From: Oscillospiraceae bacterium
Lineage (GTDB): Bacteria > Bacillota > Clostridia > Oscillospirales > Acutalibacteraceae
DNA: 64,000 nt
Assembly (NCBI GenBank): GCA_015065765.1
Contig: SVPP01000006.1
Coordinates: forward strand, 1-64,000
Direction: 5' to 3'
Shown here piece by piece: positions 3,022 through 37,007 of the stretch (positions within the stretch are counted from its first letter, which is position 1; each line of letters starts with the position of its first letter). The position numbers were made by a program, and so were the translations under genes. The notes beneath the pieces are model-generated. The model ran no database searches. It was not told where the DNA came from and saw nothing but the letters and a program-made list of their open reading frames with translations.

Positions 3022-3370
3022 TGGTGGAGATGGCGGGAGTCGAACCCGCGTCCGAAAACTCATTCTCACAACTTTCTACGAGTGTAGCCAATTTTTTAAG
3101 ATTCCCCTCAAAGCACGTCAGTTGGCAAACTCACTTATCGGGTAGCCTTTGATGCATGACAGGTTACAAGGCGCTCACCTGTTCACGTTCACCACTAATC
3201 GACGCCCTTAAATAAGCCGTGGTACTCTTATTCAGGACGGGCGCTTAGTTAAGCAGCCTGTAAAACTGTGTTTTTGTCGTTTATTTTTAAACGTTGCGAT
3301 TTTTAAAGTGGCACCGCACCACTACTCGCTTATCATGATTCAAAATCCCCGTCGAAATCCTTTCATCCCC
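3022..3370 (-). ncRNA. ssrA: tmRNA (transfer-messenger RNA)
   Basis: The 5' end reads GGGGATGAAAGGATTTCGAC and the 3' end CGGGTTCGACTCCCGCCATC...CCA, which pair into the tRNA-like acceptor and T-arm of tmRNA. Total length is 349 nt, normal for the family. The tag reading frame on the minus strand ends NDKNTVLQAA-stop (about 3249-3285), then pseudoknot-type stems follow. tmRNA with SmpB rescues ribosomes on broken mRNA and tags the nascent peptide for proteolysis. The resume codon could not be fixed with certainty. smpB lies about 830 bp upstream on the same strand. Confidence 0.95.
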
Positions 3371-4052: not shown

Positions 4053-4154
4053 AGTCATTCTCCTTTTTTCGGCTGAGCCGTTTTTACAATTAAATTTTAA
4101 TGGAGAATTTCAAAAATTTTAATATAGCAAAGGTTGAAAACAGCGGAAATTTCT

Positions 4155-4203
4155 CAACTATCGGTTGTTTTTGTTTAAAAATCAACTAAACCAACAGTTG
4201 TTT
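4155..4203. promoter_or_regulatory. Two CAAC/GTTG dyads upstream of the HTH gene
   Basis: CAAC-TATCG-GTTG at 4155-4167, and AATCAAC at 4180-4186 facing GTTGTTT at 4197-4203. The second resembles the AATCAAC...GTTGATT dyads near serC (12346-12364) and the TipAS gene (41339-41361). It could also fold as a weak smpB terminator. Confidence 0.35.
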
Positions 4204-4662
4204 TCAGCCTTTATCACGTAAAGCACGTTCAACATCACGTGCAGCATCCTTCTTTGCGGCAACTGCACGCTTATCATACAGCTTTTTACCTTTGCAAAGT
4301 CCGATTTCTGCTTTCGCTCTGCCTTTGACAAAATAGATTGAAAGCGGAATAAGGGTAAGTCCCTGCTGTTTTGTAAGTCCGAAATAACGGTTGATTTCTC
4401 GCTTATGGAGAAGAAGCTTTTTAGGTCTCATAGGGTCACGATTGAAAATATTGCCGTGCTCGTAAGGACTGATGTGCATTCCGTGGATGAAAACTTCTCC
4501 ATCCTTGAAGCTGCACCATGAATCTTTGAGATTCACCTTGCCCTGACGGACAGATTTAACTTCCGTACCGAAAAGCTCAAGTCCCGCTTCAATCGTTTCT
4601 TCAACAAAATAGTCGTGATACGCTTTTTTGTTGGTTGCTACTGATTTGTTTTCACTTTTCAT
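4204..4662 (-). CDS. smpB: SsrA-binding protein SmpB
   Basis: 152 residues, the usual length. Contains the SmpB core: [44 protein letters not shown], the [12 protein letters not shown] segment, and a basic tail ([26 protein letters not shown]) that enters the empty mRNA channel during trans-translation. It binds tmRNA and delivers it to stalled ribosomes. ATG 4662 was preferred to an in-frame GTG at 4671 because AAAGGG lies 10 bases upstream of the ATG. It follows recR by 65 bp and is probably cotranscribed with the dnaX block. Confidence 0.97.
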
Positions 4663-4727
4663 GCGTATCACGCCCTTTCATAATACTAATTTATTTTGAA
4701 ATAATCAAATGTAAATTATTCAAAAAA

Positions 4728-5327
4728 TTACAGAATCTGTCTGCCTTCAATCGCCCTCTGAAGTGTGATTTCGTCAGCATACTCAAGGTCACCGCCTACA
4801 GGCACACCGTAAGCAAGACGTGAAACAGTCACCCCAAAGGGTTTTATAAGCTTTGACAGATACATGGCTGTTGCCTCACCCTCAACAGTAGGGTCAGTCG
4901 CCATGATAACTTCCTTTATATCTCCCGCTGCCACTCTTGAAATGAGAGATTTCACATTCAGCTCATCAGGTCCTATGCCGTTAATGGGTGAAATAGCACC
5001 GTGAAGAACATGATATGTACCCTTGAACTCACGTGTTCTCTCAAAAGCCAGAACATCTGCTGGATTTTCCACAACACAGACAAGACTTTTATCCCTTGTA
5101 ATACTTGCACAGATAGGACACAGGTCACTGTCGGTCAGGTCACCGCAGACTGAACATCTGTGAATTTTTTCGTGAGCATCAATTATGCACTGAGCAAAAT
5201 TCTTCGCATCTTTTTCTGACATTCCCAGTACATGGAACGCAATACGCTGTGCACTTTTCTTTCCTATGCCCGGCATGCGTTCAAACTGCTCAATAAGACG
5301 GGCAAGGGGTGCGACCTTGTAGCCCAT
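4728..5327 (-). CDS. recR: Recombination protein RecR
   Basis: 199 residues, standard size. It shows an N-terminal helix-hairpin-helix (RMPGIGKKSAQRIAFHVL), a four-Cys zinc finger (CSVCGDLTDSDLCPIC, residues about 57-72), a TOPRIM domain (VCVVENPADVLAFERT and ATDPTVEGEATA), and a Walker-B-like tail SRLAYGVPVGGDLEYAD. RecR works with RecF/RecO to load RecA at gaps. Its ATG overlaps the ybaB stop as TAATG, the common dnaX-ybaB-recR arrangement. Confidence 0.98.
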   Translation of the reverse strand: MGYKVAPLARLIEQFERMPGIGKKSAQRIAFHVLGMSEKDAKNFAQCIIDAHEKIHRCSVCGDLTDSDLCPICASITRDKSLVCVVENPADVLAFERTREFKGTYHVLHGAISPINGIGPDELNVKSLISRVAAGDIKEVIMATDPTVEGEATAMYLSKLIKPFGVTVSRLAYGVPVGGDLEYADEITLQRAIEGRQIL

Positions 5328-5677
5328 TAAAACAGACCACCAAGTCCGCCAAGACCGCCGAGACCTGCTTTTGCGCTTTCCATAGCACTCTCCATAGCAT
5401 CAACAGATTTTTTGATTGCTTCATTGACTGCTGCAACTACCATATCTTCAAGCATTTCTGCATCATCGGGATCGATTACTTCAGGATCAATCTTGATTCT
5501 CTTAACTTCATGAGTGCCAAGAACAACTGCTTCAACTGCTCCGCCGCCTGCTGATGCTGTGAACTCTGTCTGCTCAATTTCTGCCTGCTTTGCTTCCATA
5601 TCAGCCTGCATATCCTGAATTTTCTTGAGCATTGCTGCCTGATTCATACCACCCTGGTTGGGAATTCTTGCTTTCAT
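5327..5677 (-). CDS. ybaB: YbaB/EbfC nucleoid-associated protein
   Basis: 116 residues. The core AAMLKKIQDMQADMEAKQAEIEQTEFTASAGGGAVEAVVLG...IKIDPEVIDPDDAEMLEDMVVAAVNEAIKKS is the YbaB signature. The family forms DNA-binding dimers of pincer shape. The C-terminus ends in a Gly/Leu repeat (GLGGLGGLGGLF), commonly seen in Firmicutes members. It lies between dnaX (12 bp upstream) and recR (1-base overlap). Confidence 0.96.
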   Translation of the reverse strand: MKARIPNQGGMNQAAMLKKIQDMQADMEAKQAEIEQTEFTASAGGGAVEAVVLGTHEVKRIKIDPEVIDPDDAEMLEDMVVAAVNEAIKKSVDAMESAMESAKAGLGGLGGLGGLF

Positions 5678-5689
5678 TTTCTTTTCCTC

Positions 5690-7372
5690 CTAATTAACAT
5701 CAAACGGAATATTACTTGCGTTTGCTTTTTTCATAAACTCATCAAGGGGATCTTTTTTCGCACCGGGAACTTCTTTTTTTACTTCCCCTTTGAAAATTCC
5801 TAATCTGTATTTTCTGCCCGATGCTTTATATATAGCCTCACTCAGCGCTTTTCTGTGAGTATCAATTCTGATAAACTGGTCAAGAGTGGGATTGAAACTG
5901 TTGATAAGCACGAAATCGCCTCTCTGAACTGCACTTGAGCCTGCAAGCAAGCCTCTGAGTGGCTTATCGGTTTCACCGAGAATTGCCAGTGTTTCTGCCC
6001 ACAGCGGGAAAGGCTTATCACCTTCTGTTGAAGTCTGAGGCTGAGTCTCTGCTCTGGGTTTCTCCACAGGTTTTGTTTCCTGCACAGGAGGAATAAAATC
6101 ATCTTCCTCAGGTGGTGGAGGTGTGAAGCTGTCCTCAACAGGAAGAGATGGTTTCTTCACTTCCTCTTTTTTCGGCTCTTCTACCGGCTTCGTTTCGGTT
6201 TTTATAACCACTCTTTCGCCCTGTGCTACTGCAGAAAGCTTCATTTCAAGCTCTGCTACACGTGACAAAAGACCTTTATTTGTTTCATCTAGTTTCGGCG
6301 AGCAGATTCTCACCATAGCCATCTCTGTTTCTATTCTGCCCGAAAGTCCCCTCTTGATATTTGCAAGAGTGTTTTCAAGCTGTGAAAGACAATAGAGTAT
6401 ATTTTCAAGTGTAAATTTCTGAGATTGGTTGCTGATTTTCTGCAGTTCCTCTGCAGTACAGATAATCAGGCCTTCTGCCTTTTTGACTGTTTTGACAACC
6501 ATCAGGTTTCTGAAATGAGAGATCAGTTCACTGCAAAGTCTTTCCATATCGCAGGAAGCGTTGTGCAGGTCATCAATCATCTGAAAAACTTTTGCTGTAT
6601 CTTTTTCGTTGAGTGCATCTGCCAGGTCGTAGAGATATGTTTTACCTGCCATTCCTGCTGCACTCTCAACAACTTCGGCGGTTATATTTTTGCTTCTTGA
6701 TGCACACTGGTCAAGAAGCGACAAAGCGTCTCTCAGTGCACCGTCCGCAATAGAAGCTACTAACGCTGCCGCAGAATCATCTATTGTGAGACCTTCAGAC
6801 TGACAGACAAATTTCAGCCTTTTCACAATATCCTCAACAGGAATTCTTCTGAAATCAAAACGCTGACAACGTGAAAGAATTGTAGGAGGAAGCTTGTGAA
6901 CCTCTGTCGTAGCCAGAATGAATTTTACGTGCTCGGGCGGTTCTTCAAGAGTTTTGAGAAGTGCATTGAAAGCCTCGATAGTGAGCATATGAACTTCGTC
7001 GATAATATAAACTCTGTATTTCGCATTTGCAGGGGTAAAAGCAGCTTCGTCTGTCAAATCGCGGATATTGTCAACACCTCTGTTACTTGCGGCGTCGATT
7101 TCAATAACATCAAGAATTGAAGAGTTATCAATTCCTCTGCAAATCTCACATTCATTGCAAGGATTACCATCCTGAGGATTCAGACAGTTGACAGCCTTAG
7201 CAAGAATTCGTGCACAAGTTGTTTTGCCTGTACCGCGTGAGCCGTTGAAAAGATATGCGTGGGAAATCTTACCCTCTTTAAGTTCGTTGGCAAGAGTGGA
7301 TGTAACATGCTCCTGTCCTACAATATCGCTGAAAACCTGTGGTCTGTATTTTCTGTAAAGCACCTGATACAT
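5690..7372 (-). CDS. dnaX: DNA polymerase III subunits gamma and tau
   Basis: 560 residues. The N-terminal AAA+ clamp-loader ATPase has YRKYRPQVFSDIVGQEHV, Walker A GSRGTGKTT, a zinc-binding Cys cluster (CLNPQDGNPCNECEIC), Walker B VYIIDEVHML and sensor SRCQRFDF. A Pro/Glu/Lys-rich linker (about residues 385-450) precedes a tau-type C-terminal domain. The protein loads the beta clamp and ties polymerase to helicase. ATG 7372 was chosen over an in-frame GTG at 7381 because AAAGG lies 9 bases before it. It is transcribed behind the SRP RNA gene, as in Bacillus. Confidence 0.97.
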   Translation of the reverse strand: MYQVLYRKYRPQVFSDIVGQEHVTSTLANELKEGKISHAYLFNGSRGTGKTTCARILAKAVNCLNPQDGNPCNECEICRGIDNSSILDVIEIDAASNRGVDNIRDLTDEAAFTPANAKYRVYIIDEVHMLTIEAFNALLKTLEEPPEHVKFILATTEVHKLPPTILSRCQRFDFRRIPVEDIVKRLKFVCQSEGLTIDDSAAALVASIADGALRDALSLLDQCASRSKNITAEVVESAAGMAGKTYLYDLADALNEKDTAKVFQMIDDLHNASCDMERLCSELISHFRNLMVVKTVKKAEGLIICTAEELQKISNQSQKFTLENILYCLSQLENTLANIKRGLSGRIETEMAMVRICSPKLDETNKGLLSRVAELEMKLSAVAQGERVVIKTETKPVEEPKKEEVKKPSLPVEDSFTPPPPEEDDFIPPVQETKPVEKPRAETQPQTSTEGDKPFPLWAETLAILGETDKPLRGLLAGSSAVQRGDFVLINSFNPTLDQFIRIDTHRKALSEAIYKASGRKYRLGIFKGEVKKEVPGAKKDPLDEFMKKANASNIPFDVN

Positions 7373-7409: not shown

Positions 7410-7549
7410 AGCTTTGCCTTGGTCATATGACGTGCAGGCGGACTGTGGCGCACAGCGCTAACCGCTTAATGCTGCTCGATTCCCCGCCTGACATGGTTCA
7501 CGGCGCCCCGTCGCACAGGACCCACACGCCACATGACCAAAACAAAGCT
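7410..7549 (-). ncRNA. ffs: Signal recognition particle RNA, small (Alu-less) type
   Basis: The minus strand contains the SRP S-domain pattern GGTCCTGTGCGAC, then GTGAACCATGTCAGG, then GGGGAATCGAGCAGCATTAAGC, and the pairing strand GCGCCACAGTCCGCC. The outer strands (AGCTTTG...TTGGTCATGTG with CATATGACCAA...CAAAGCT) form a long closing helix, giving about 140 nt, with T-rich sequence after the helix that probably ends transcription. It binds Ffh for cotranslational targeting. The location just upstream of dnaX matches other Firmicutes. Confidence 0.9.
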
Positions 7550-18939: not shown

Positions 18940-19015
18940 CCGGGTGTGGCGCAGCTGGTAGCGCGCTTGACTGGGGGTCAAGAGGCCGTGAGTTCAAGTC
19001 TCGCCACTCGGACCA
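18940..19015 (+). tRNA. tRNA-Pro, anticodon GGG, CCA encoded
   Basis: Acceptor CCGGGTG pairs with CACTCGG (one G-U). D-arm region GGCGCAGCTGGTAGCGC, anticodon stem CTTGA/TCAAG around a loop carrying GGG, T-arm GTGAGTTCAAGTCTCGC, discriminator A, and CCA in the genome. Its 3' end from 18993 is part of the attachment duplication, so the element restores an intact tRNA. Confidence 0.95.
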
Positions 19016-24954: not shown

Positions 24955-27675
24955 TTAATAATCTTTCTCTTTACCGCAAGAACTGCATTTTTTAGTGAAT
25001 AAGCCTTTGAAAATGCCACCGCAATGCTGACAAAGTCCCTGCGCGCGACGATTACTTCTGCGTCTTTCCATTTCTTTTCTTTCTTCTTCTCTCTGTCTTC
25101 TTTCCTCTTCTTCTCTCTGTCTTCTTTCTTCAACCTGGCGCGCTTCTGCCATCCTAAGTTTTTCCGAAAGTATTTTATGCTCTTCATCCCAATTATAAAT
25201 ATTATCAAAAAGTATCCATTTTTTAGCTTCCGGGAAAAATTTGCATTCAATTGTTCCATTCTTTCTCAGTTGAACAGATGACTTAGTGGCAATAACATCA
25301 CTGGGAATGGTTTTGTCAAACAAGCCAACCCTCTCACCATCGTTTTTCAAGCCTGTAATAACTTGCAATTCCAGAAGTGCAATAATGTCGTCCCATTTCT
25401 TAAAATCATCATATGTACTATACTTTCCTTTAACTACCACTCTTCCTTCTTTTGTCAAACATGCCAATGCGTCTGGAAGAGCAAAAATTGATTTAATATT
25501 TTTAGGACACCATTGATATAGATAATCAATAAGATTGAATTTTACTGGTTGTATTTGCCATGTTCTATTAGCCGAAGCCGCTGTATAAACTTTTCCGTCA
25601 GCAGATAATGCCGCAAAGAAATAATCGCCTGAACTAATCTGAACAATGTTCTCCCACGTCTCAACACATGGCTGATAAAAAGACATATCTCTGTCCATTT
25701 TTTTGTCATGGGTAACAACAACTTTTCCGTTAGACATAAGACCCATAGTATGATATTTCGTTGTAGCTATAGAAATAATATTCTTCCATTCACTAACATC
25801 ATTTTGACTATAATCATTATCTTTATCATTAACATTAGTGGATACCACTCTTCCATCTGATTGCAAGCCAACTGTATGATACTCATTTGTACTTACTTCA
25901 ATAATATCTCTCCATTTTTCCACATGACAAGCTTCATCCTGTGCATTCTCACCAGTTGCCAAAACAGTACCATCAACTTTCACAGCTATTAAACGTTTAT
26001 TTCCATAGCAACTGAATAATTTTTTTGCCGTATTAACCGCTTTAATCAACTGTGCATTTTCCTCTTTCTTTGATTCAATAATAGCCTGTCTTTCTTCAAT
26101 TAGTTGCTCACAACGCAAAAGAAGTTCATCCGCATCTTTCCAGCCTGAAATTTTTTCAAGTAATTCTTTTGCCTCAAAATATTGTGACAATTCCGTTTGA
26201 TTCATTTTGTTTTCAGCCTCAAAACGAATCTTTTCTTTCGGCATATCATCAAATTTTTCTTTACATTCTTTTGCAAGTTCTTCAGAATCCAGATATCCAC
26301 CTAAAGATTCAAAAAGGTTCCTCGCTCTTTCATATGTTTTTGCTGCATACTGAATATAAAATGGATCTTTCTTTTCTTTATCAGCTTTTCTAATAAAACT
26401 TGTAGCGTTTTCGTATTTCTTTTCTATTTGTTCACATTGTCTTGAAAAACCAAAAATTAATTTTCTTTTATCCGCTTTTTCTTTAATTGATTCTAAATGA
26501 TTTTTTTCTTCACCTTCTGCAACTCGAATAGCGCGCATAAAGTCTTTATCTGCATCCAGATCAACTATTATATTTTCCAATTCATCTAAAGAAGACAGTC
26601 TCAAGCGAAGCAATGTTTTACCAACGTAAGCCATTGCATCCAACGGATTTTCATCAAGAGCTTTTTCAAAATATTCGTTCGCTTTCTCGTACTCTTTGTC
26701 TTCAAGGTAAAAATATCCGCGTGTTGTCAAAGCACCGCTTGTATTTTTTGTTTCGGCAACAGAATTTCCACCGGATGCAACAACTCCGATAATTTTCTCA
26801 ATACCTCTTACCAAATCCTGCATGAAGCCGATTTTGCCCATATCCTGTGCCTGAAGTGCTTTGAATTCATCAGGCATATCGTATGCATCCATATCTTTAT
26901 AGCAAGGGATAAGAACCTTTGATTTGTCCTTCGCCATAAGTTTCAGGAATCTTGACCACTCATTTTTAACCCACACTGCATGGAAATACTCGTATTTTGT
27001 GCCGACAGAAAGTAACACCTTTGCGCTGTTGAGTGCTGCAAAAATGTAAGGTTCATACATCTGACCAAGTTTATCTTCAAGTGTGATTCTTGCGAAGAAT
27101 ACTTTCATCCCTTTTGCAGTGAGTGAATCGTAAATATCCTGTGCAAGGACACTGTCGATTGTTCTTTCGCCCTTATCATCTGTTTCTTTGTAGCAGATAA
27201 AAACGTCATACGGCTTTTCGTTCTTGCTGATTGACAGAATTTCATCCATAATGCGGTCAATTTCTCTTGCTTCATCACGATAAATCTTCTGCGCAACAAC
27301 ATCAGCATATTCCATTGCCATTTTGAAATTTTCATCAGATGACAATTTTTCAAATGATGCTCGGTGACATGTGGGAATTTTCTTCGCCGTTGCAGGGTCA
27401 TCCACATATTCTATACCGTAATTGCAAAGGCAAAGTCCCCAATATGCCTCTGCCTCTTCGGGAAACTCTGCAATAATATTTTCATAGATGCCTGCCGCTT
27501 TGTCAAATTCACTGTTCAGACGAAGCCTGTTTGCTCTATTGAAAAGATTTACTTTCTTTTCACTGTCAAGTGCAGGCACTGTCTGAGTTGTTCCGCAGTA
27601 TTCGCATTCTACAACATTAACATCAGCTTCAATATTCAGGTCTCCGCCGCACATTTTACATTTAAAAATAGCCAT
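24955..27675 (-). CDS. Zinc-ribbon / TIR / helical-repeat / RCC1 protein, 906 aa
   Basis: Same plan as its neighbour: zinc ribbon at C6, C9, C24, C27; TPR-like helices; TIR at about 155-295 with E239 in VWVKNEWSRF. The first 395 residues are near-identical to the 1133-aa paralog, as are the last 50 (coiled coil plus CQHCGG...CSSCG ribbon). Between them the proteins diverge: this one has two helical repeats (LGGYLDSEELAKEC and ISGWKDADELLLRC, about 395-560) and a shorter, more degenerate RCC1-like region (about 565-860). It follows the RHH regulator by 22 bp and precedes the 1133-aa gene by 17 bp. Function is unknown; a NAD-consuming or signalling effector with a variable sensor is the inference. 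Confidence 0.88.
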   Translation of the reverse strand: MAIFKCKMCGGDLNIEADVNVVECEYCGTTQTVPALDSEKKVNLFNRANRLRLNSEFDKAAGIYENIIAEFPEEAEAYWGLCLCNYGIEYVDDPATAKKIPTCHRASFEKLSSDENFKMAMEYADVVAQKIYRDEAREIDRIMDEILSISKNEKPYDVFICYKETDDKGERTIDSVLAQDIYDSLTAKGMKVFFARITLEDKLGQMYEPYIFAALNSAKVLLSVGTKYEYFHAVWVKNEWSRFLKLMAKDKSKVLIPCYKDMDAYDMPDEFKALQAQDMGKIGFMQDLVRGIEKIIGVVASGGNSVAETKNTSGALTTRGYFYLEDKEYEKANEYFEKALDENPLDAMAYVGKTLLRLRLSSLDELENIIVDLDADKDFMRAIRVAEGEEKNHLESIKEKADKRKLIFGFSRQCEQIEKKYENATSFIRKADKEKKDPFYIQYAAKTYERARNLFESLGGYLDSEELAKECKEKFDDMPKEKIRFEAENKMNQTELSQYFEAKELLEKISGWKDADELLLRCEQLIEERQAIIESKKEENAQLIKAVNTAKKLFSCYGNKRLIAVKVDGTVLATGENAQDEACHVEKWRDIIEVSTNEYHTVGLQSDGRVVSTNVNDKDNDYSQNDVSEWKNIISIATTKYHTMGLMSNGKVVVTHDKKMDRDMSFYQPCVETWENIVQISSGDYFFAALSADGKVYTAASANRTWQIQPVKFNLIDYLYQWCPKNIKSIFALPDALACLTKEGRVVVKGKYSTYDDFKKWDDIIALLELQVITGLKNDGERVGLFDKTIPSDVIATKSSVQLRKNGTIECKFFPEAKKWILFDNIYNWDEEHKILSEKLRMAEARQVEERRQREEEERRQREEERKEMERRRSNRRAQGLCQHCGGIFKGLFTKKCSSCGKEKDY

Positions 27676-28414: not shown

Positions 28415-28500
28415 GAAATCTGATAATAAATAAAAAACTTTACAGGCCGGACTGCACAGATAATTCAGCACGAAATTGACCATTGCGAGGGGATATTGAT

Positions 28501-30144
28501 ATGAAGAAATTTATTTTATGCTCGGTTTTAACATTATGTATTATTTTCTCACTTTCTACAGTCGGTTCAGCACAAAGCGGACCGATATTTGAACCTCTCG
28601 TCTATCCTGAAGAAGCAGTTACAGCTTTCAAAGAAGAAATGCTCGGCAGAGTGTCAACCGGTCCTGATTATGTTTCAAACCGCGGATACGAAGAAAACGG
28701 ACTTTATATGTCCCCTTATTGGAGTTGTGAAATCGAAGGAAAAGATGTTCCCGTATATGCGGTTATGAGCTACAATGAAGATGTAAACAGAGGCGTTCTG
28801 CAATCGGTTGTTACGATTTTCGTTCAAGATTTTGCTGACGGAATCAACATCACTCTTATTCAGAAAATCTCACAAATTGATTCGGCCATTATTCTGCCTT
28901 CAAAGCTCGGTGCTACTGCCTGTGTGAAGGGCAATTCTGTCGGTTTCACTGCAACAAAGTTAGGCGCATACACCTGCCTGATAAACGGTGATTCATTGAA
29001 TGATGCCATCACCGTGTTTGTTAAAGAATACACTGATGAAAATGCTGAAATAGGCGAATACATAAATCAGTACGGTGAAGACAGGGTAAAGGTTTTCCCT
29101 GCAGGATTTTATGAGACGGAATATATCGACACAAGCGACTGTGACGTAATTTACTTCTGCAGAGGCTCGTTTGTTTCTGCAAAACATATTTATGATGTAC
29201 GAAGTGATGAAGAAGCTGCAACCTTACCTCACAGAAATACTTTTCTTGATGTTTTTTCAAGAGACGGCGTTATAATTGACGGCTCGGGCACTATAGATTT
29301 TAATCGTCTTGACCGTAATGAACGCTCACTTATGAATGTATCTCTCTGCAAGAATTGCAGTTTGTCGGGACTGACCTTTATTAACCCGCCCGTATGGACC
29401 GTTACCGTTTATGCAACATCGGACAGCACTATAGACGATTTTACAATTTTCGGCTACCGTACGAACAGCGATGCCATAAATATATGCGGCTGCGAAAACA
29501 TGGAAATTGCAAACTGCTTTGCACGAAACGGTGATGACTGCTACAGTGTAAAAACAACAAATGCAGATTTTGACGCGAGAAACATCACATTTAAAAACTG
29601 CATCGGCTGGAGTAACAAATGCCGTTGCTTCGGCATCACCGGAGAAGTTTATGCGCCAATTGAAAACATAACCTTTACAGACTGCGATGTGCTTTACAGA
29701 AATGCAAACTGGGATAACAATAAGGTTGCCTCTCTGACCGTTGCCGTTGAAATGGGCGGTTCACCTATAGAAAATGTTCTGTTTGAAAACATCAACATAT
29801 ACCGTGATGACGGAAGAGCTTTTTACTGTGCAGTAAATAACGACATAGAAAATTGCAAGGTAAGCGGAGTTGTTTTCAGAAACGTCACATACAATTCTGC
29901 CGAGCGATCAAAGATTGCTTCCATTCAGAGTCTGAACGGCTCCGAAACGGAATTCAAAGCGTTTATTTACAGACTGCTCAGGCTCTTCTTCCCTATGTGC
30001 GAAGAAAGCTTCGGCCACCTTATCCCCGGCAACAACGATGTTGAAGTAAAGCTTGAAAATGTTATTGCAAACGGCATAAAGCTTAATCCTTTCAATCTGA
30101 TTTTCAACATTGAAACGAAAGGAAACGAAAACATATCGTTTTAA
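28501..30144 (+). CDS. Secreted right-handed beta-helix glycosidase, GH28-like
   Basis: 547 residues. Signal peptide KKFILCSVLTLCIIFSLSTVGSAQS. Residues about 200-490 form parallel beta-helix coils (IDGSGTIDFN, NVSLCKNCSLSGLTFINPPVWTV, NSDAINICGCENMEIANCFARNGDDCYSVKT), matching the polygalacturonase pattern with Asp and Asp-Asp in the catalytic coil (about 321-350). The N-terminal 180 residues look like an extra beta domain. Probably cleaves a polysaccharide outside the cell; substrate uncertain. GAGGGG precedes ATG 28501. The C-terminus may be cut short by a one-base frameshift in TTTT near 30140, since a further 15 sensible codons follow in another frame. Confidence 0.8.
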   Translation: MKKFILCSVLTLCIIFSLSTVGSAQSGPIFEPLVYPEEAVTAFKEEMLGRVSTGPDYVSNRGYEENGLYMSPYWSCEIEGKDVPVYAVMSYNEDVNRGVLQSVVTIFVQDFADGINITLIQKISQIDSAIILPSKLGATACVKGNSVGFTATKLGAYTCLINGDSLNDAITVFVKEYTDENAEIGEYINQYGEDRVKVFPAGFYETEYIDTSDCDVIYFCRGSFVSAKHIYDVRSDEEAATLPHRNTFLDVFSRDGVIIDGSGTIDFNRLDRNERSLMNVSLCKNCSLSGLTFINPPVWTVTVYATSDSTIDDFTIFGYRTNSDAINICGCENMEIANCFARNGDDCYSVKTTNADFDARNITFKNCIGWSNKCRCFGITGEVYAPIENITFTDCDVLYRNANWDNNKVASLTVAVEMGGSPIENVLFENINIYRDDGRAFYCAVNNDIENCKVSGVVFRNVTYNSAERSKIASIQSLNGSETEFKAFIYRLLRLFFPMCEESFGHLIPGNNDVEVKLENVIANGIKLNPFNLIFNIETKGNENISF

Positions 30145-30214
30145 TAACAAGCTTGACGGCGTTATAAAAATTGCCGTTACAAATGAATAAGATTTATACA
30201 GAAGGTGAAAAACC

Positions 30215-31279
30215 ATGTGCAAAAAAATTACCGCAGTGTTACTTGCTTTAACTATACTTCTTGCTTTACCTTTAGGGGCATCTGCAGAAGAAAGTGTTCC
30301 TGAAAAGGAAGGTTATGTGCTTGATTTCAGCACTGAATTCAATGATGAGCTGAACACAGAATACTGGTTGCCTCAGTATCTGCCTCACTGCACTACCAAC
30401 ATAGAAGGTGCTTCTGCAAGGTACAGAATTGAAAACGGTTGCCTTAATCTTTTTCTCACAAAGGATTCGCCTGATTATTTCGGCGGTCAACCGGGTTCAA
30501 CAGACCCTGACAACCTTTTATGGATAGCTAACGGAATTCAGACGTGGGAAAAGAATCACCTGCACCCCGGTGGTAACCAACAGATGAATGTTGAGCCCTA
30601 CGAAGGGTATGCCACACAGTACGGCTACTTTGAAATACGGATGAAAATGCCTGACACTAAAGGTGGCGGATATGCTTCCTGGTGGCTTATCGGCACGCAG
30701 GACGATATGAGCCCTGACGGAACAACTTCGGAACAGAACGGTGAAATTGATGTTCTGGAAACCTTCTTTGAAACTCCAGGAGTGTTCGAGCCAAAGGTTC
30801 ACCCATGGAATGACGAAAGCCTTAACGAGTGGTCAGACAAAGTTACCCTTGAAGGTGAGCCGACAGATTACATAAACCAATTCCACACCTATGCTATGGA
30901 CTGGAGACCTGAAGGAATAACGTTTTATGTGGACGGAAAAGAAGTAGCCGAAACATACGAGTCGCCACAATACAGAATGTGTATGATTCTGTCTATGTAC
31001 ATCAACTCTGATTTCAGCGGTTGGGATAATCCTGAAAACAATTATCCCATAGAATGGCTGATTGATTATGTCCGTGTTTACAAAGATAAAAATGGTTATG
31101 ATGAAAGTGACAGACTTAATGACTTCCAGCGTTTTATAAAAGATATCTGCAACTCCCTCTGTGCATTCAGACAGAATGTTGCTTTATTTTTCGAAAACCT
31201 TTGCACACAATTTTGTCTTTTCTTTGAGCAGATTTTAAGCCGGATACCTGTGCTGTACACAACAAAAAAGTTCAATTAA
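30215..31279 (+). CDS. Secreted GH16-family beta-glucanase-like enzyme
   Basis: 354 residues with signal peptide (CKKITAVLLALTILLALPLGASA). The jelly-roll core has the GH16 catalytic motif ExDxxE as NGEIDVLETF (E177, D179, E182), preceded by YGYFEIRMKMPDTKGGGYASWWLIG and followed by FHTYAMDWRPEGITFYVDGKEV and WLIDYVRVYKD. The family cleaves beta-1,3 or mixed-linkage glucans, agars, carrageenans or host keratan-type chains; the exact target is not predictable. The last 50 residues are an unusual aromatic and Cys-rich tail (DICNSLCAFRQNVALFFENL). It follows the GH28-like gene by 70 bp, probably one operon. Confidence 0.9.
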   Translation: MCKKITAVLLALTILLALPLGASAEESVPEKEGYVLDFSTEFNDELNTEYWLPQYLPHCTTNIEGASARYRIENGCLNLFLTKDSPDYFGGQPGSTDPDNLLWIANGIQTWEKNHLHPGGNQQMNVEPYEGYATQYGYFEIRMKMPDTKGGGYASWWLIGTQDDMSPDGTTSEQNGEIDVLETFFETPGVFEPKVHPWNDESLNEWSDKVTLEGEPTDYINQFHTYAMDWRPEGITFYVDGKEVAETYESPQYRMCMILSMYINSDFSGWDNPENNYPIEWLIDYVRVYKDKNGYDESDRLNDFQRFIKDICNSLCAFRQNVALFFENLCTQFCLFFEQILSRIPVLYTTKKFN

Positions 31280-31382: not shown

Positions 31383-31411
31383 TTGACAAACTAAATCCAA
31401 TGTGTTATTCT
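31383..31411 (+). promoter_or_regulatory. Promoter of the leader-ORF/methyltransferase operon
   Basis: Perfect TTGACA (31383-31388), 17-bp spacer, TATTCT (31406-31411); predicted start about 20 bases before the leader ORF. Confidence 0.6.
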
Positions 31412-31438
31412 TGTCAAAATTCAATTTGAGGTATTATT

Positions 31439-31552
31439 ATGAACACATATCTTTTCAAAAAACATGATATGGATGTGAATTGGCTTGCACAGTATGATTA
31501 TCAGTCATCACCGGGCAGGCTTATACCTCTATATTCATTTTGGGAGAGATAA
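31439..31552 (+). CDS. 37-aa leader peptide, candidate attenuation uORF
   Basis: ATG with GAGG 7 bases upstream; begins MNTYLFKKHDMDVNW and ends SPGRLIPLYSFWER. It lies between a promoter and a strong intrinsic terminator, upstream of a methyltransferase gene with its own ribosome site. That layout is known from ribosome-stalling leaders that induce antibiotic-resistance genes. I do not know a named family for this peptide. Confidence 0.6.
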   Translation: MNTYLFKKHDMDVNWLAQYDYQSSPGRLIPLYSFWER

Positions 31553-31574
31553 CACTATATTTCCATATGTTTAT

Positions 31575-31617
31575 AACGGTGTAAGTAGCTGCAGATACTT
31601 ACACCGTTTTATTTTTT
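31575..31617 (+). terminator. Intrinsic terminator between leader ORF and methyltransferase (attenuator)
   Basis: AACGGTGTAAGTA and TACTTACACCGTT form a perfect 13-bp stem with an 8-base loop, followed by TTATTTTTTAT. It would stop transcription before the methyltransferase unless antitermination occurs. Confidence 0.8.
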
Positions 31618-31637
31618 ATCTTAAAAGGAGAATTGTT

Positions 31638-32483
31638 ATGAAATTGTTTGATTTAATCAAAAAGAAACTTTTCAAAAAGCAACATGTAAAAACAGGCGAT
31701 CATCTTGTAGATTTTTATAACCGTATTGACGAGGATTCCCGTCTTTTATCAAAGCACGGGCAAATTGAGTTTCTGACAACCGTGAAATACATTGAGAAGT
31801 ATCTGAAAGACGGTATGAAGATTATAGAAATCGGTGCGGCTACAGGCAGATATTCTCATTATTTTGCTCAGAAGGGTTTTGAGGTTGATGCAGTTGAACT
31901 CATTGAGCATAATATTGAAATTTTCAAAGCAAAAACTCTGCCCGATGAGGAAGTCACCATCAGGCAAGGGAATGCAATCAATCTGGCTGAATATCCCGAT
32001 GGTAATTATGATGTAACGCTTTTGCTTGGACCGATGTATCACCTTTATACTGTAGAAGAACAGAAAAAAGCTCTGTCTGAAGCAATCAGAATCACGAAAC
32101 CCGACGGCTACATCTTTGTTGCGTACTGTATGGTTGACCCTTCTGTTTTAACAGGAATTTTCAAAAATAATAAGGTTCAGCAAAGCATCGATGACGGGCT
32201 GATTAATACAGAAACATTTGAAACATATTTCCCTCCCCATGGTGTTTTCAAGCTATACACGAGAGATGAAATTTTTGAATTGACAGAAGAACTGAATGCG
32301 GAAAGACTGCATTTTCTTGCAACCGACGGCTATACCCTTCATATGCGTGACGTAATAGATAAAATGGATAACGAAACCTATGAACTGTATCTGAAATACC
32401 ATTTCAAAACCTGTGAAAGACAGGATTTAGTCGGCACATCGCACCACACACTTGATGTGTTGAGAAAGGAGCAGACACTATGA
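31638..32483 (+). CDS. Class I SAM-dependent methyltransferase
   Basis: 281 residues. SAM-binding motif MKIIEIGAATGRYSHYFAQKGFEVDAVE, acidic residue at the end of strand 2, YDVTLLLGPMYHLYTVEEQKKAL at strand 4, then IRITKPDGYIFVAYC. The N-terminus is basic (KLFDLIKKKLFKKQ). AAAAGGAG precedes ATG 31638; frames opening further upstream run through the terminator. First structural gene of a coupled four-gene set. The target is unknown; the leader and terminator suggest inducible expression. Confidence 0.85.
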   Translation: MKLFDLIKKKLFKKQHVKTGDHLVDFYNRIDEDSRLLSKHGQIEFLTTVKYIEKYLKDGMKIIEIGAATGRYSHYFAQKGFEVDAVELIEHNIEIFKAKTLPDEEVTIRQGNAINLAEYPDGNYDVTLLLGPMYHLYTVEEQKKALSEAIRITKPDGYIFVAYCMVDPSVLTGIFKNNKVQQSIDDGLINTETFETYFPPHGVFKLYTRDEIFELTEELNAERLHFLATDGYTLHMRDVIDKMDNETYELYLKYHFKTCERQDLVGTSHHTLDVLRKEQTL

Positions 32484-33601
32484 TTAAATATCCAAACTAT
32501 GACAGAAGCATACTTTCAATTGCTTCATCAGTTTTAAACCATTTTAGCGTTAAGGACTGCCAACACAAGACCTTACCCGAATTTGATAAATTACTTGAGA
32601 AAGATTACAAAAACATTATAGTAATTCTTTTTGACGGATTAGGAACTTCGATACTTAACTACCACCTCAAAGAAAACGACTTTTTGAGAAAGCATTATGT
32701 AACCGATATTTCTTCCGTTTTCCCATCGACAACCGTTGCTGCAACTACATCCATTTTGAGTGGCTACTCCCCTTTGGAATGTGGTTGGCTCGGTTGGGAC
32801 TTATACTTTGAGGAAATCGGTGAAAACGTTGCAGTTTTCAAAAACACTTTACAAAGGGACGGTGAGCGTGCCGCAAAATACAACGTAGCTCACAAATACA
32901 TTCCTTACAAAAACATTATGCAAAGAATTGGAAAGGTCAAGGGCAGAAAAAGTGCTTACTGTGTAGCCTTCTTTTCAAAATACCGCATCAAAAGTGTTGA
33001 AGATATTTGCAAGACCATTTATAAGCTTTCCAAAAAGAGAAAGAAGAAATACATATACGCTTATTGGAATCAGCCTGACCATGCAATGCACGGTCACGGA
33101 GTAACAAGTCCTGAAGCACACAAAGAGATTCTGCATATTAACAGCGAGGTAGAAAAGCTTTGCGGTAAATTGAAGGATTCGCTTGTAATCATAACTGCAG
33201 ACCACGGACTTTGTGATGGGAAAACAGAATATTTAGAGGACTATCCCCAAATAACAGAACTACTAAAAATACAACCATCCATTGAACCAAGAGCATTAAG
33301 TTTCTTTGTTAAAGACGGAAGAACAGAAAAATTCAAAACAGAATTCAATAAAATTTTTGGAGAGTCTTTCAGGTTAATGACAAAGGACGAGGTTTTCTCT
33401 GAAAATATTTTAGGTTTTGGAACACCTCATCCGAAAACTGCAGACTTTATAGGTGACTTTTTCGCAGTTGCTCTTGGTGAAATCAATATTGACTATAAAC
33501 GAGGTGATTTTGAAATGGTTGGTGTTCACGCAGGTCTCACAGAAGAAGAAATGACTGTTCCCTTTATAGCAATAGAGACTGAAAAGAGGAAACGACGATG
33601 A
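32480..33601 (+). CDS. Alkaline-phosphatase-superfamily phosphodiesterase/pyrophosphatase
   Basis: 373 residues. IIVILFDGLGTSILNYH carries the first metal Asp; FPSTTVAATTSILSGYSP carries the catalytic Thr; YAYWNQPDHAMHGHG and VIITADHGLCDG give further metal ligands, with a late H in VGVHAGLT. This is the nucleotide pyrophosphatase/phosphodiesterase branch. No signal peptide, so probably cytoplasmic. It overlaps the methyltransferase stop as ATGA and the following GNAT start as ATGA, so all three are translationally coupled. Confidence 0.85.
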   Translation: MIKYPNYDRSILSIASSVLNHFSVKDCQHKTLPEFDKLLEKDYKNIIVILFDGLGTSILNYHLKENDFLRKHYVTDISSVFPSTTVAATTSILSGYSPLECGWLGWDLYFEEIGENVAVFKNTLQRDGERAAKYNVAHKYIPYKNIMQRIGKVKGRKSAYCVAFFSKYRIKSVEDICKTIYKLSKKRKKKYIYAYWNQPDHAMHGHGVTSPEAHKEILHINSEVEKLCGKLKDSLVIITADHGLCDGKTEYLEDYPQITELLKIQPSIEPRALSFFVKDGRTEKFKTEFNKIFGESFRLMTKDEVFSENILGFGTPHPKTADFIGDFFAVALGEINIDYKRGDFEMVGVHAGLTEEEMTVPFIAIETEKRKRR

Positions 33602-34158
33602 ATATAATACAAAAAATAAAACAGATAAAATACATAAAAACCACACCCACACTTCAAACTGAAAGGCTGATTTTACGTCCTATTACACCAAAGGATGCAG
33701 ATGCAGCTTTTGTATGGTTGAGTGATGAAAAGGTTAATAAATTCATGCCTTATAACCTTTACAAAAACACAGACGAGGTTTTGCTTTGGATAAATGTAAT
33801 TCTTCCCGATAGCGATAAATACCACTGGGGATTTATGCTTAAAGAAAACAATCTGTTAATCGGCAGCGGAAGCATAGGGCCTGACAAGGGTAACCCCGAT
33901 GAGTGGGGATTCGGTTATAATATTCGTTCTGATTACTGGAACAAGGGCTTTGCTACAGAGGCTGCAAAAAGGATGATTGAGTTTGCACATAAAGAACACG
34001 GCATTAAAGATTTTGTTGCAAGCCATGCTGTTGATAATCCTGCTTCGGGCAGAGTTATGGAAAAATGCGGTCTTACTTTTGAGCGTTACACTGAATACAG
34101 CACATTTGATGGTAAAGAAAAATTCAAAGCAAAATCATATAAATTGCATTTGGAGTGA
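33598..34158 (+). CDS. GNAT N-acetyltransferase (RimJ/RimL-like)
   Basis: 186 residues. LQTERLILRPITPKDADAAFVWLSDEKVNKFMPY is a RimJ/RimL-type start; acetyl-CoA motif GYNIRSDYWNKGFATEAAKRMIEFAHKEHG; NPASGRVMEKCGLTFERYTEY at the end. In this setting acetylation of a small molecule or peptide is possible, but nothing in the sequence fixes the substrate. ATGA overlap with the upstream gene; 6 bp before the second methyltransferase. Confidence 0.85.
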   Translation: MNIIQKIKQIKYIKTTPTLQTERLILRPITPKDADAAFVWLSDEKVNKFMPYNLYKNTDEVLLWINVILPDSDKYHWGFMLKENNLLIGSGSIGPDKGNPDEWGFGYNIRSDYWNKGFATEAAKRMIEFAHKEHGIKDFVASHAVDNPASGRVMEKCGLTFERYTEYSTFDGKEKFKAKSYKLHLE

Positions 34159-34164
34159 TGATTT

Positions 34165-34929
34165 ATGAAAATAAAACATATTGATAATGGTCGTTTTTTT
34201 GACTTCGGTAAAGCCTCTGCTGAATATGCAAAATACAGAGATATCTACCCTGAAAGGCTTTACGAAGAATTATACGCACTTGGCGTAGGACGCAAAAACA
34301 CTTCCTGGCTTGATATAGGCACCGGCACAGGCGTTCTGCCATTTAACCTCTGTAACTATGGTGCAAGTATAACAGGCGTTGATATTTCTGAAAGTCAGAT
34401 TGAAGTTGCAAAAACGTTGACTATAGAAAAAGGTGTTAATAATGTGAGTTTTCTCGTTTCTCCTGCTGAAACAACACCTTTTGAAGATAACAGTTTTGAC
34501 TGCATTACTGCGGCACAATGCTTTTGGTATTTTGACAGAGATAGAATTATTAATGAAATTAAGCGGCTTATTAAACCCGGCGGAGTGTTTGTGAAAATCT
34601 ATATGAGTTACACCCTTGATGATGAAATTGCTGAAAAATCTCACGAGCTTGTCAAGAAACTGAATAAGAACTGGACTCCCGGAGCATCGGGTTCAAAAGA
34701 TATGTATAACCATCCTTTTGAAAATAGCAAGCTTGATGTTTTCGAGTGCAAAATACCGTTTACAAGGGAAAGTTGGCACGGAAGAATGTCAGCCTGTCGC
34801 GGAACGATGGCATCTATGGATGAAGAAACATTTAAAAAGTGGAATAAAGAACATAAAGAACTGCTTAAAAATTATCCCGACACATTTGAAATAAGGCACA
34901 AGGTTTATATAGCCTCATACAAATTTTGA
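34165..34929 (+). CDS. Class I SAM-dependent methyltransferase (UbiE/Methyltransf_11 type)
   Basis: 254 residues. Motif I SWLDIGTGTGVLPFNLCNYGASITGVDIS, motif II region FEDNSFDCITAAQCFWYFD, post-motif EIKRLIKPGGVFVKIYMSY. The C-terminal half is typical of small-molecule methyltransferases. Last gene of the four-gene operon; its sequence is not closely related to the first methyltransferase. Target unknown. Confidence 0.87.
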   Translation: MKIKHIDNGRFFDFGKASAEYAKYRDIYPERLYEELYALGVGRKNTSWLDIGTGTGVLPFNLCNYGASITGVDISESQIEVAKTLTIEKGVNNVSFLVSPAETTPFEDNSFDCITAAQCFWYFDRDRIINEIKRLIKPGGVFVKIYMSYTLDDEIAEKSHELVKKLNKNWTPGASGSKDMYNHPFENSKLDVFECKIPFTRESWHGRMSACRGTMASMDEETFKKWNKEHKELLKNYPDTFEIRHKVYIASYKF

Positions 34930-35088: not shown

Positions 35089-35117
35089 TTGAAGTTATGT
35101 CTTAAATGTGGTATAAT
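35089..35117 (+). promoter_or_regulatory. Promoter of the GH110-like gene
   Basis: TTGAAG (35089-35094), 17-bp spacer, TATAAT (35112-35117). The same box set (TTGAAG, 17, TATAAT) precedes the TipAS gene. Confidence 0.6.
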
Positions 35118-35147
35118 AACCGAAAAAATAATCGGAAGGAGATTTTT

Positions 35148-37007
35148 ATGCTTCTGAAATTAGTTTCATTTATTGCATCAATATTGTTATTATTCACTTC
35201 ATCTGCAATAGCTCCACAAAAGCCGGATGTACTCGTTGAAATACTTGATAACTTAAGCGAGAACAGAACGGCAGACGAGATAAATGGTGCAGCCGGGACA
35301 AAATTCTATATTCAGCGACCGAAAAATGAAATGCTTACAGAGGTTAAGGCTTCTGCTTTCGGACTTTCGGAAAGTAACGAAGATAATTTTTCTGCTTTTC
35401 AGAGTGCACTTAATTACTGCTCCGAACATCCGCAGACAAAGCTTGTTATTGACAAAGGCACATATTATTTCAAAAGCCTTAACGGACTTGATGCCAACAA
35501 CTGCACGGATTTGCTTATTGAAGGAAACGATGCAACCTTTGTTTTCTCCTCAACCGGTTATAAGTTTTTTATCAGAAACAGCGACTGCGTTGAAATCCGC
35601 AACCTTAATTTTGATTGGAACTGGACAGAAAGCCCACTTGCTTCGGTTGTCACCGTTCAAAACAGTAACGCAGATACTCACACGCTTGACCTTGTATTCA
35701 AGGATGCTGAATACTGTAAAGAAAACTGCAGACTGATGGCAATTACTCAATGTGACACTGAAACATATACCTTCGGTGCAAAATATTCATCAAAAGAGGT
35801 TTATCTTTATCAGGACGGAACAAACATAAAATCAGTCCGGAAGATTTCTGATAATACTCTGCGTGTTACTCATAACAGCTGTATGGACAATTTTCATGAC
35901 GGTGAAACATATATACTCAGACACTATGTCTATGACGGAACGATTTTTAATCTCCGGGATTACAGCAAAAATTTAACCTTTGACAATGTCAGTATTTACG
36001 GAAGTGCCGGTATGGCTTATATCTGTGAAGGCAACTGCTCACATTTTCAGATTATCAATAACTTTATCGGTGTCAATCCCCAAAACAAAGATAAACGATG
36101 CGTGTCCCTGACAGCCGACGCGATTCATATTGTAAACACCGATGGTTGCTTCAATATTTCGGGTTGTGACATAAGCGGAATGGGCGATGATGCTATTAAC
36201 GTTCATGACGGACTCGGATATATTTCAGCAATAAACGGTAACACCCTAACGCTTGTCGCTTCGGCAATGAGGCTGAGCAAAGGTGACACTCTTGCGTTTA
36301 AGAATGACAAATTTGAGAACACAGATTTAACCGCAAAAATCGTTTCTGTCAAAGATCTTGATTGGATAACAAAAGAGGTTGTCATTGAGGCGTTGCCCGA
36401 GAGCGTAAAGGAAGGTTGGACCGCCTACAATACAGAATGCGGCAGCGATAATTACGTTATCACGAACAATTATTTCCACGAAAACAGAGCAAGAGGTCTG
36501 CTTCTTCAATCTTCAAACGGGCTCTGCGAGAACAACCGTTTTTATAAAACTATGGCACAGGCAATAAAGGTTGTTATGGATATTGAACCCACTCTTTGGC
36601 AGGAAGGCACAGGCGTTGATAACCTTATCATACAGAATAACACCTTTGAAAAGTGTAATTACAGTGACTGGGGTTCTGTAATTGAAATCGGCACAAATAT
36701 TGCAGGCAGAAGTGCAGAAACAGCCGTTTTTACCAATATTGAAATCAGCTCTAACAAGTTTACTGACATTCCGTCAATGCTGATGAGAGCGGATAATGCG
36801 AATGGTTTTGTTTTCCGTAATAACACGATTGATACCGGTGAATTCTTTGAGAAAAATTCAATTCAAGGCAGAGTTCAATTCGGAAAATTCTGTTCAAATG
36901 TCACCTACGCAGATAATATTTTTGCAGACAGTGGATTTTTAAAATTCAAAGAAATTGTGAAAGCAACAGATATCTGCGTCTGGGCACAAATCAATTCGCA
37001 GTTCTGA
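35148..37007 (+). CDS. Secreted right-handed beta-helix glycosidase, GH110-like
   Basis: 619 residues with signal peptide (LLKLVSFIASILLLFTSSAIA). Many short beta-helix coils: LDANNCTDLLIEGNDATFVF, SGCDISGMGDDAINVHDGLGYI with an Asp pair, YFHENRARGLLLQSSNGLCENNRFYKTMAQAI, and IIQNNTFEKCNYSDWG. The GDDAINVHD coil and ENRARG coil resemble GH110 alpha-1,3-galactosidases, which act on blood-group B and related host glycans; I rate the family call as moderate. ATG 35148 follows GGAAGGAG; an earlier in-frame ATG lies upstream of the transcription start. Confidence 0.7.
   Translation: MLLKLVSFIASILLLFTSSAIAPQKPDVLVEILDNLSENRTADEINGAAGTKFYIQRPKNEMLTEVKASAFGLSESNEDNFSAFQSALNYCSEHPQTKLVIDKGTYYFKSLNGLDANNCTDLLIEGNDATFVFSSTGYKFFIRNSDCVEIRNLNFDWNWTESPLASVVTVQNSNADTHTLDLVFKDAEYCKENCRLMAITQCDTETYTFGAKYSSKEVYLYQDGTNIKSVRKISDNTLRVTHNSCMDNFHDGETYILRHYVYDGTIFNLRDYSKNLTFDNVSIYGSAGMAYICEGNCSHFQIINNFIGVNPQNKDKRCVSLTADAIHIVNTDGCFNISGCDISGMGDDAINVHDGLGYISAINGNTLTLVASAMRLSKGDTLAFKNDKFENTDLTAKIVSVKDLDWITKEVVIEALPESVKEGWTAYNTECGSDNYVITNNYFHENRARGLLLQSSNGLCENNRFYKTMAQAIKVVMDIEPTLWQEGTGVDNLIIQNNTFEKCNYSDWGSVIEIGTNIAGRSAETAVFTNIEISSNKFTDIPSMLMRADNANGFVFRNNTIDTGEFFEKNSIQGRVQFGKFCSNVTYADNIFADSGFLKFKEIVKATDICVWAQINSQF

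Follow-up and report, generated by a model that had tools for sequence, protein, structure and literature searches.

A candidate ribosome-controlled transcription attenuator upstream of a methyltransferase operon in gut Clostridia

We propose that a conserved block upstream of a methyltransferase operon in the window, by which we mean the whole 64,000-nucleotide stretch of DNA analysed, is a ribosome-controlled transcription attenuator. It would be switched on when a ribosome stalls before region 2, the part of a short leader ORF that can act as the 5' half of an antiterminator, and we put the probability of this reading at roughly 78%. The scheme draws on the ORF, on mutually exclusive RNA pairings and on their conservation and covariation, all of them sequence or comparative evidence. 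The element appears to unite a leader ORF, an antiterminator and an intrinsic terminator that exclude each other, and an anti-antiterminator overlapping the ORF, as expected of an attenuator.

Results

A promoter, a 37-codon ORF with a ribosome site, a 13-bp terminator and a methyltransferase with its own ribosome site had been described in a sequence-only reading of this DNA, and we found all of them, both in the window and in its relatives (15 of 15). The parts of the locus are as follows.

31383..31411, + strand: sigma-70-type promoter, TTGACA-17-TATTCT (sequence scan; same block in relatives)
31428..31434, + strand: leader Shine-Dalgarno (SD) region GAGGTAT, region 0 (sequence; predicted pairing with ATACCTC at 31523-31529)
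31439..31552, + strand: leader ORF, 37 codons plus stop, 37 aa (ORF call; in-frame indels in relatives)
31482..31488, + strand: region 1, GGCUUGC (codons W15-L16-A17), putative anti-antiterminator with partner GCAGGCU at 31515-31521 (predicted pairing)
31515..31541, + strand: region 2, putative antiterminator 5' half, GCAGG-CTTATACC-TC-TATA-TTCAT, inside codons 26-35 (folding, covariation)
31575..31587, + strand: region 3, terminator 5' arm, containing GGTGTAAG at 31578-31585, the putative antiterminator 3' half (folding, covariation)
31596..31608, + strand: region 4, intrinsic terminator 3' arm, with a U-rich tract next to it at 31609-31619 (sequence, folding)
31638..32483, + strand: class I SAM methyltransferase, 281 aa, first gene and constant switch target in the window clade (family search, relatives)
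32480..33601, + strand: type I phosphodiesterase / nucleotide pyrophosphatase domain protein, 373 aa, missing from some relatives but present in the majority (family search)
33598..34158, + strand: GNAT acetyltransferase (Acetyltransf_3), 186 aa, variable in relatives (family search)
34165..34929, + strand: second class I methyltransferase, 254 aa, variable in relatives (family search)

The -10 hexamer TATTCT, ending at 31411, is preceded by TG and lies 17 nt from TTGACA at 31383, and the core of the leader SD is GAGG at 31428-31431. The terminator stem of 13 bp spans 31575-31608, and its U-rich tail reaches about 31619. The methyltransferase SD (AGGAG, 31626-31630) comes next, with the ATG at 31638-31640, which corrects an earlier start at 31640, from where translation meets 30 stops. 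Scans of the window returned 8 promoter-like sites against 6.8 expected by chance and 2 terminator-like sites against 1.9, so that motif scans alone stand at background level and the case rests on conservation in relatives. Such background figures are what one would see if a chance ORF had fallen beside the ordinary terminator of an upstream transcript, the methyltransferase having a separate promoter. The comparative data already contradict that explanation, which we find scarcely credible, since they reveal one conserved block with covarying alternative pairings.

Searching genome contigs with the methyltransferase returned 15 relatives at 72-93% identity. Their source is in every case a gut MAG labelled Clostridia or Oscillospiraceae, and each carries the promoter, ORF and terminator block upstream of the gene. 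The complete element is retained in 20 distinct sequences, the window and its relatives from Clostridia gut MAGs, while a leader profile search over 398 genomes of the bacterial family located it in 13, all of which also encode the methyltransferase. Leader conservation in relatives had been set beforehand as a point on which the attenuation reading could fall, and the leader proved to be conserved.

In the window clade the leader ORF measures 35-38 codons and indels inside it comprise whole codons, whereas the spacing 3' of the leader stop differs by +2, +3 or +4 nt among relatives. Two sequences (L060 and L061) have a frameshifted leader, in which the ORF remains open and ends at the same place. 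Furthermore, the SD, the start codon and the open frame are retained in the window clade and in the surveyed divergent leader types. This care for the frame argues against a metabolite- or protein-binding RNA of the riboswitch kind with an incidental ORF. The strong nucleotide conservation, which extends to codon third positions, would suit such an RNA, but the leader element gave nothing credible against Rfam at gathering or relaxed thresholds, and we regard this alternative as very unlikely.

Where two sequences encode the same residue, they use the same codon in 93% of comparisons for the leader against 65% for the methyltransferase (18 window-clade sequences, with the frameshifted L060 and L061 left out), and the N-terminal part of the leader combines a residue identity of 0.70 with a synonymous-codon identity of 0.95. 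Since residues vary yet the synonymous choice is largely fixed, nucleotides rather than residues appear to be conserved. The leader is thus probably constrained mainly as RNA, more than as a peptide, with translation kept too.

This bears on the earlier suggestion that the C-terminal peptide SPGRLIPLYSFWER is an arrest or drug-sensing motif, which our data do not support: L060 and L061 read region 2 in the other frame, where YRLQAYTSVFIL replaces RLIPLYSFW over nearly identical nucleotides, and the stretch coincides with the putative antiterminator strand. What survives of the original attenuation reading is transcription attenuation coupled to the leader, now with a mutually exclusive, covarying antiterminator. 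A peptide-specific drug arrest in the style of ErmCL or TlrB, with a methyltransferase that modifies rRNA for resistance, would explain why the ORF position and the methyltransferase target resemble erm and tlrB, and why MN(T/A/S)YL..K.DM, the N-terminal half, can be recognised in every window-clade member. We nevertheless consider it improbable, given the gap between residue and synonymous identity, the frameshift that swaps the C-terminal residues, the unrelated peptides that other clades place before the same enzyme, and the enzyme itself. The window methyltransferase falls far under every rRNA-methyltransferase cut-off of NCBIfam (Erm model, 17.4 bits against 212; RlmE, 15.2 against 269), and the NCBIfam matches listed for it include no RlmA. 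Its AlphaFold model, built on a shallow alignment, has a mean pLDDT of 48. By eye, the window leader contains no R/K-x-R/K motif.

Folding predicts an antiterminator in which CTTATACC (31520-31527, codons 28-30) pairs with the GGTGTAAG segment of the terminator 5' arm, and the final third of the ORF would be the antiterminator strand. When the transcript is folded up to the terminator loop, the prediction contains the antiterminator hairpin and a second hairpin between codons 15-17 and 26-28. The minimum-energy fold of the full transcript is the terminator form, so read-through would depend on kinetics. The antiterminator also belongs to the predicted consensus fold of 17 sequences (part of alignment columns 113-167). 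Its competitors in these models are the terminator and upstream pairings that involve the leader ribosome site and codons 15-17.

In 17 of the 24 loci tested, the leader forms a predicted duplex with the terminator 5' arm that beats dinucleotide-shuffled controls (p<=0.05), and its site is nearly always the same. In register, 22 loci provided 18 distinct region 2/region 3 pairs over 10 positions; 168 of the 180 positions pair, against a permutation mean of 158, and none of 50,000 permutations was as good. Two-sided changes occur at 5 of the 10 antiterminator positions (permutation p about 2e-5), and region 4 tracks region 3, with the 3:4 pairing kept. The covariation p-values are optimistic, as the segments were registered by eye and the loci are related. 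One example, in the order of regions 2, 3 and 4, is CTTA/GGTGTAAG/CTTACACC versus CTTG/GGTGCAAG/TTTGCACC. One D-type leader (L160) has reverted to the A/T/A state at a covarying position, and three loci carry an A-C mismatch within an otherwise intact antiterminator. Within the window clade alone, the terminator stem holds two compensated pairs, TA/CG and AT/TA, near the loop.

In clades C, D and E, 9-12 of 13 positions pair between the leader's SD-start region and the end of region 2, and these pairs covary through T-A/C-G and C-G/T-A double changes (p=0.006); the pairing is probably an anti-antiterminator that includes the ribosome site. The window-clade counterpart, GAGGTAT:ATACCTC, is short and weak (p=0.05-0.15; 0.053 in the window itself), and the codon 15-17 hairpin may replace it there. 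The region 1:2 pairing is invariant in the aligned window-clade relatives and hence without covariation support.

Methyltransferases about 50-58% identical to that of the window carry quite different leader peptides, for example MAVNIFTLNITVTMHDEDTRYWDSPGLYCRTHISV (L072), MLNRFGHKFYMFPMQFAAVVYWQKSRLTLLYPYRCK (L066) and MMLYRFYNQDSTWLDGADFTPVGLPVLCFSHK (L067), again followed by a strong terminator. These leaders have 32-42 codons as a rule and terminators of -16 to -35 kcal/mol, and they appear to be other peptides on the same switch. There is no codon or amino acid that every surveyed leader type contains, so the peptide does not disclose the signal. Classical amino-acid attenuation, in which one charged tRNA (e.g. 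Trp, Asp or Asn) is sensed and the operon metabolises that amino acid, shares the RNA logic of trp-type attenuators; the window-clade leaders all keep W15 and D10/D20, and a Trp lies just ahead of region 2 in most leader types. However, the leaders contain no run of a single codon, some types lack Trp (L062, L063, L079 and L158), Asp or Asn before region 2, the invariant window-clade codons sit in RNA helices, and the downstream genes are not amino-acid biosynthesis genes. We therefore judge this explanation to be unlikely, slightly more so than peptide arrest.

The switch leader is absent before the majority of the distant methyltransferase homologues (e.g. L070, L071, L078, L103, L105 and L109-L113), which indicates that it belongs to only part of the methyltransferase family. 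Upstream of some distant homologues (L124, L125 and L126) we observed a different conserved leader, TAAGAGCATACCTAGAGGAAA...GAGCGGTATGAAGTAAC...AGAAAGCAGG, with a terminator next to it and no clear ORF; at the gathering score, Rfam gave no match for those of L124 and L125.

A search with the D-type leader revealed further genes headed by the switch family. It lies directly before an S66 peptidase in L152 and L163, near MccF-like proteins of known structure (4e5s, E=4e-96), directly before a P-loop kinase without Pfam match (L158 and L163), and before a second methyltransferase family (L160 and L161, also L084, L086 and L096). In L165 a second-family methyltransferase follows the switch and is itself followed by an S51 peptidase; S51 peptidases can confer microcin C resistance (PMC9239234). 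The L104 operon runs from the switch through an ANT(6)-like streptomycin adenylyltransferase and a window-type methyltransferase to a further ORF. The ANT(6)-like protein scores 348 bits against PF04439 and 248.9 bits against NCBIfam ANT_6, below the cut-off of 420, which makes it a family resemblance and not a called resistance gene. Other switch-headed operons add GNATs, a 2H phosphoesterase or a nucleoside phosphorylase-like protein.

The shared theme of these operons seems to be small-molecule modification, which fits resistance or detoxification, and the range of targets supports a control of detoxification or resistance that would be induced by translation stress. The original attenuation reading is supported in this respect too, as switch relatives head resistance-type genes that include the ANT(6)-like one.

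A P-loop protein of about 193 aa, IILGPHAVGKMTVGQELAKIT, recurs in switch-headed operons (L163 at 1772-2347, L164, L166, L179, L180 and L186), and the one copy tested had no Pfam or NCBIfam match. In the window, the ORFs flanking the operon (28483-31279 and 35106-37007) resemble secreted carbohydrate-active enzymes. Inspection by eye of a large minus-strand ORF (24955-27675), starting MAIFKCKMCGGDL, suggests a zinc ribbon at its beginning and a stretch resembling TIR (YDVFICYKETDD); L202 encodes a protein that begins alike (4136-6104), downstream of a methyltransferase of the window type. Other RNA genes of the window are a tmRNA (3022-3370, minus strand), a small SRP RNA (7429-7527, minus strand) and a tRNA-Pro (18940-19015, plus strand).

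Discussion

We infer ribosome occupancy as the switch, together with the kind of inducer and the function of the enzymes. During translation at normal speed, ribosomes would cover region 2 (codons 26-35), regions 3 and 4 would form the terminator and the operon would be off. With no ribosome loaded, region 2 would be captured by an upstream partner (the leader ribosome site, codons 15-17 or both), and the terminator would form as well. A ribosome stalled or crawling before region 2 would instead cover the upstream partner and leave region 2 free to pair with region 3, which would block the terminator and allow transcription of the methyltransferase-phosphodiesterase-acetyltransferase-methyltransferase operon. 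The output would be small-molecule-modifying enzymes of a detoxification or resistance type. A drop in translation speed is the likely signal, brought about by an inhibitor either of translation or of tRNA charging, the inducer being less certain than the scheme.

The direction of the response is suggested by the anatomy and by the vmlR leader of Bacillus subtilis, the closest known logic, where the likeness is one of control logic (PMC9226507). Experiments have established the vmlR order of uORF, anti-antiterminator, antiterminator and terminator (PMC9226507). As proposed here, the uORF start region takes part in the anti-antiterminator, and stalling of the ribosome releases the antiterminator, so that intrinsic termination does not occur (PMC9226507); the identity of the uORF codons is largely dispensable (PMC9226507). 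The vmlR uORF, however, has 3 codons and lies apart from the antiterminator, whereas the ORF of 32-42 codons here contains the putative antiterminator strand, and the vmlR target is an ABC-F protein, unlike here (PMC9226507).

The tlrB/yxjB leader of B. subtilis likewise places a leader peptide and a terminator before a methyltransferase gene (PMC6851288). It differs in needing an RYR arrest motif, NusG pausing and SD sequestration of tlrB itself (PMC6851288), and its enzyme is RlmA(II) (PMC6851288), a family outside which NCBIfam places the window enzyme. The toiL uORF of E. coli and the whiB7 uORF of actinobacteria sense many translation stresses, as we propose here (PMC12121999), and for toiL it is enough that the ribosome stalls at one of several codons (PMC12121999). 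However, toiL acts on downstream translation and Rho (PMC12121999), while the output here would be an intrinsic terminator. The microcin C immunity genes mccF (S66) and mccG (S51) belong to peptidase families also found behind switch relatives (PMC9239234), but such peptidases are absent from the window's own operon and the likeness holds at family level only.

The window leader peptide had no match in plasmids; a D-type leader had one, which we judged to be chance. Exact patterns of the leader DNA did not occur in viral contigs, and a looser pattern returned 14 stretches there, dismissed as chance, without matching start region or terminator. Our literature search on leader motifs and aadE attenuation returned nothing on this element; most subscription papers lay outside that search, and an earlier description is possible.

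The element appears to be a new family within a known kind of control, ribosome-mediated attenuation. Our data point to an undescribed attenuator family, absent from Rfam, in at least 10 families of Clostridia. More tentatively, and with the odds against it, this may be a family of sensors with which gut Clostridia detect translation stress of many kinds, a single RNA switch that depends little on the leader peptide sequence serving interchangeable detoxification cassettes. If true, these cassettes would comprise methyltransferases, acetyltransferases, an ANT(6)-like nucleotidyltransferase, MccF/MccG-type peptidases, a phosphorylase and phosphodiesterases; such a set would suit a defence against 'Trojan horse' inhibitors of the nucleotide type that block tRNA charging, and the founding methyltransferase would then represent a new resistance enzyme. 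The switch would mark likely resistance or detoxification operons in uncultured gut bacteria and could be a ready reporter for what inhibits translation in them. Since it predicts function by association, it may offer a route to uncharacterised resistance-type enzymes, starting with this methyltransferase family.
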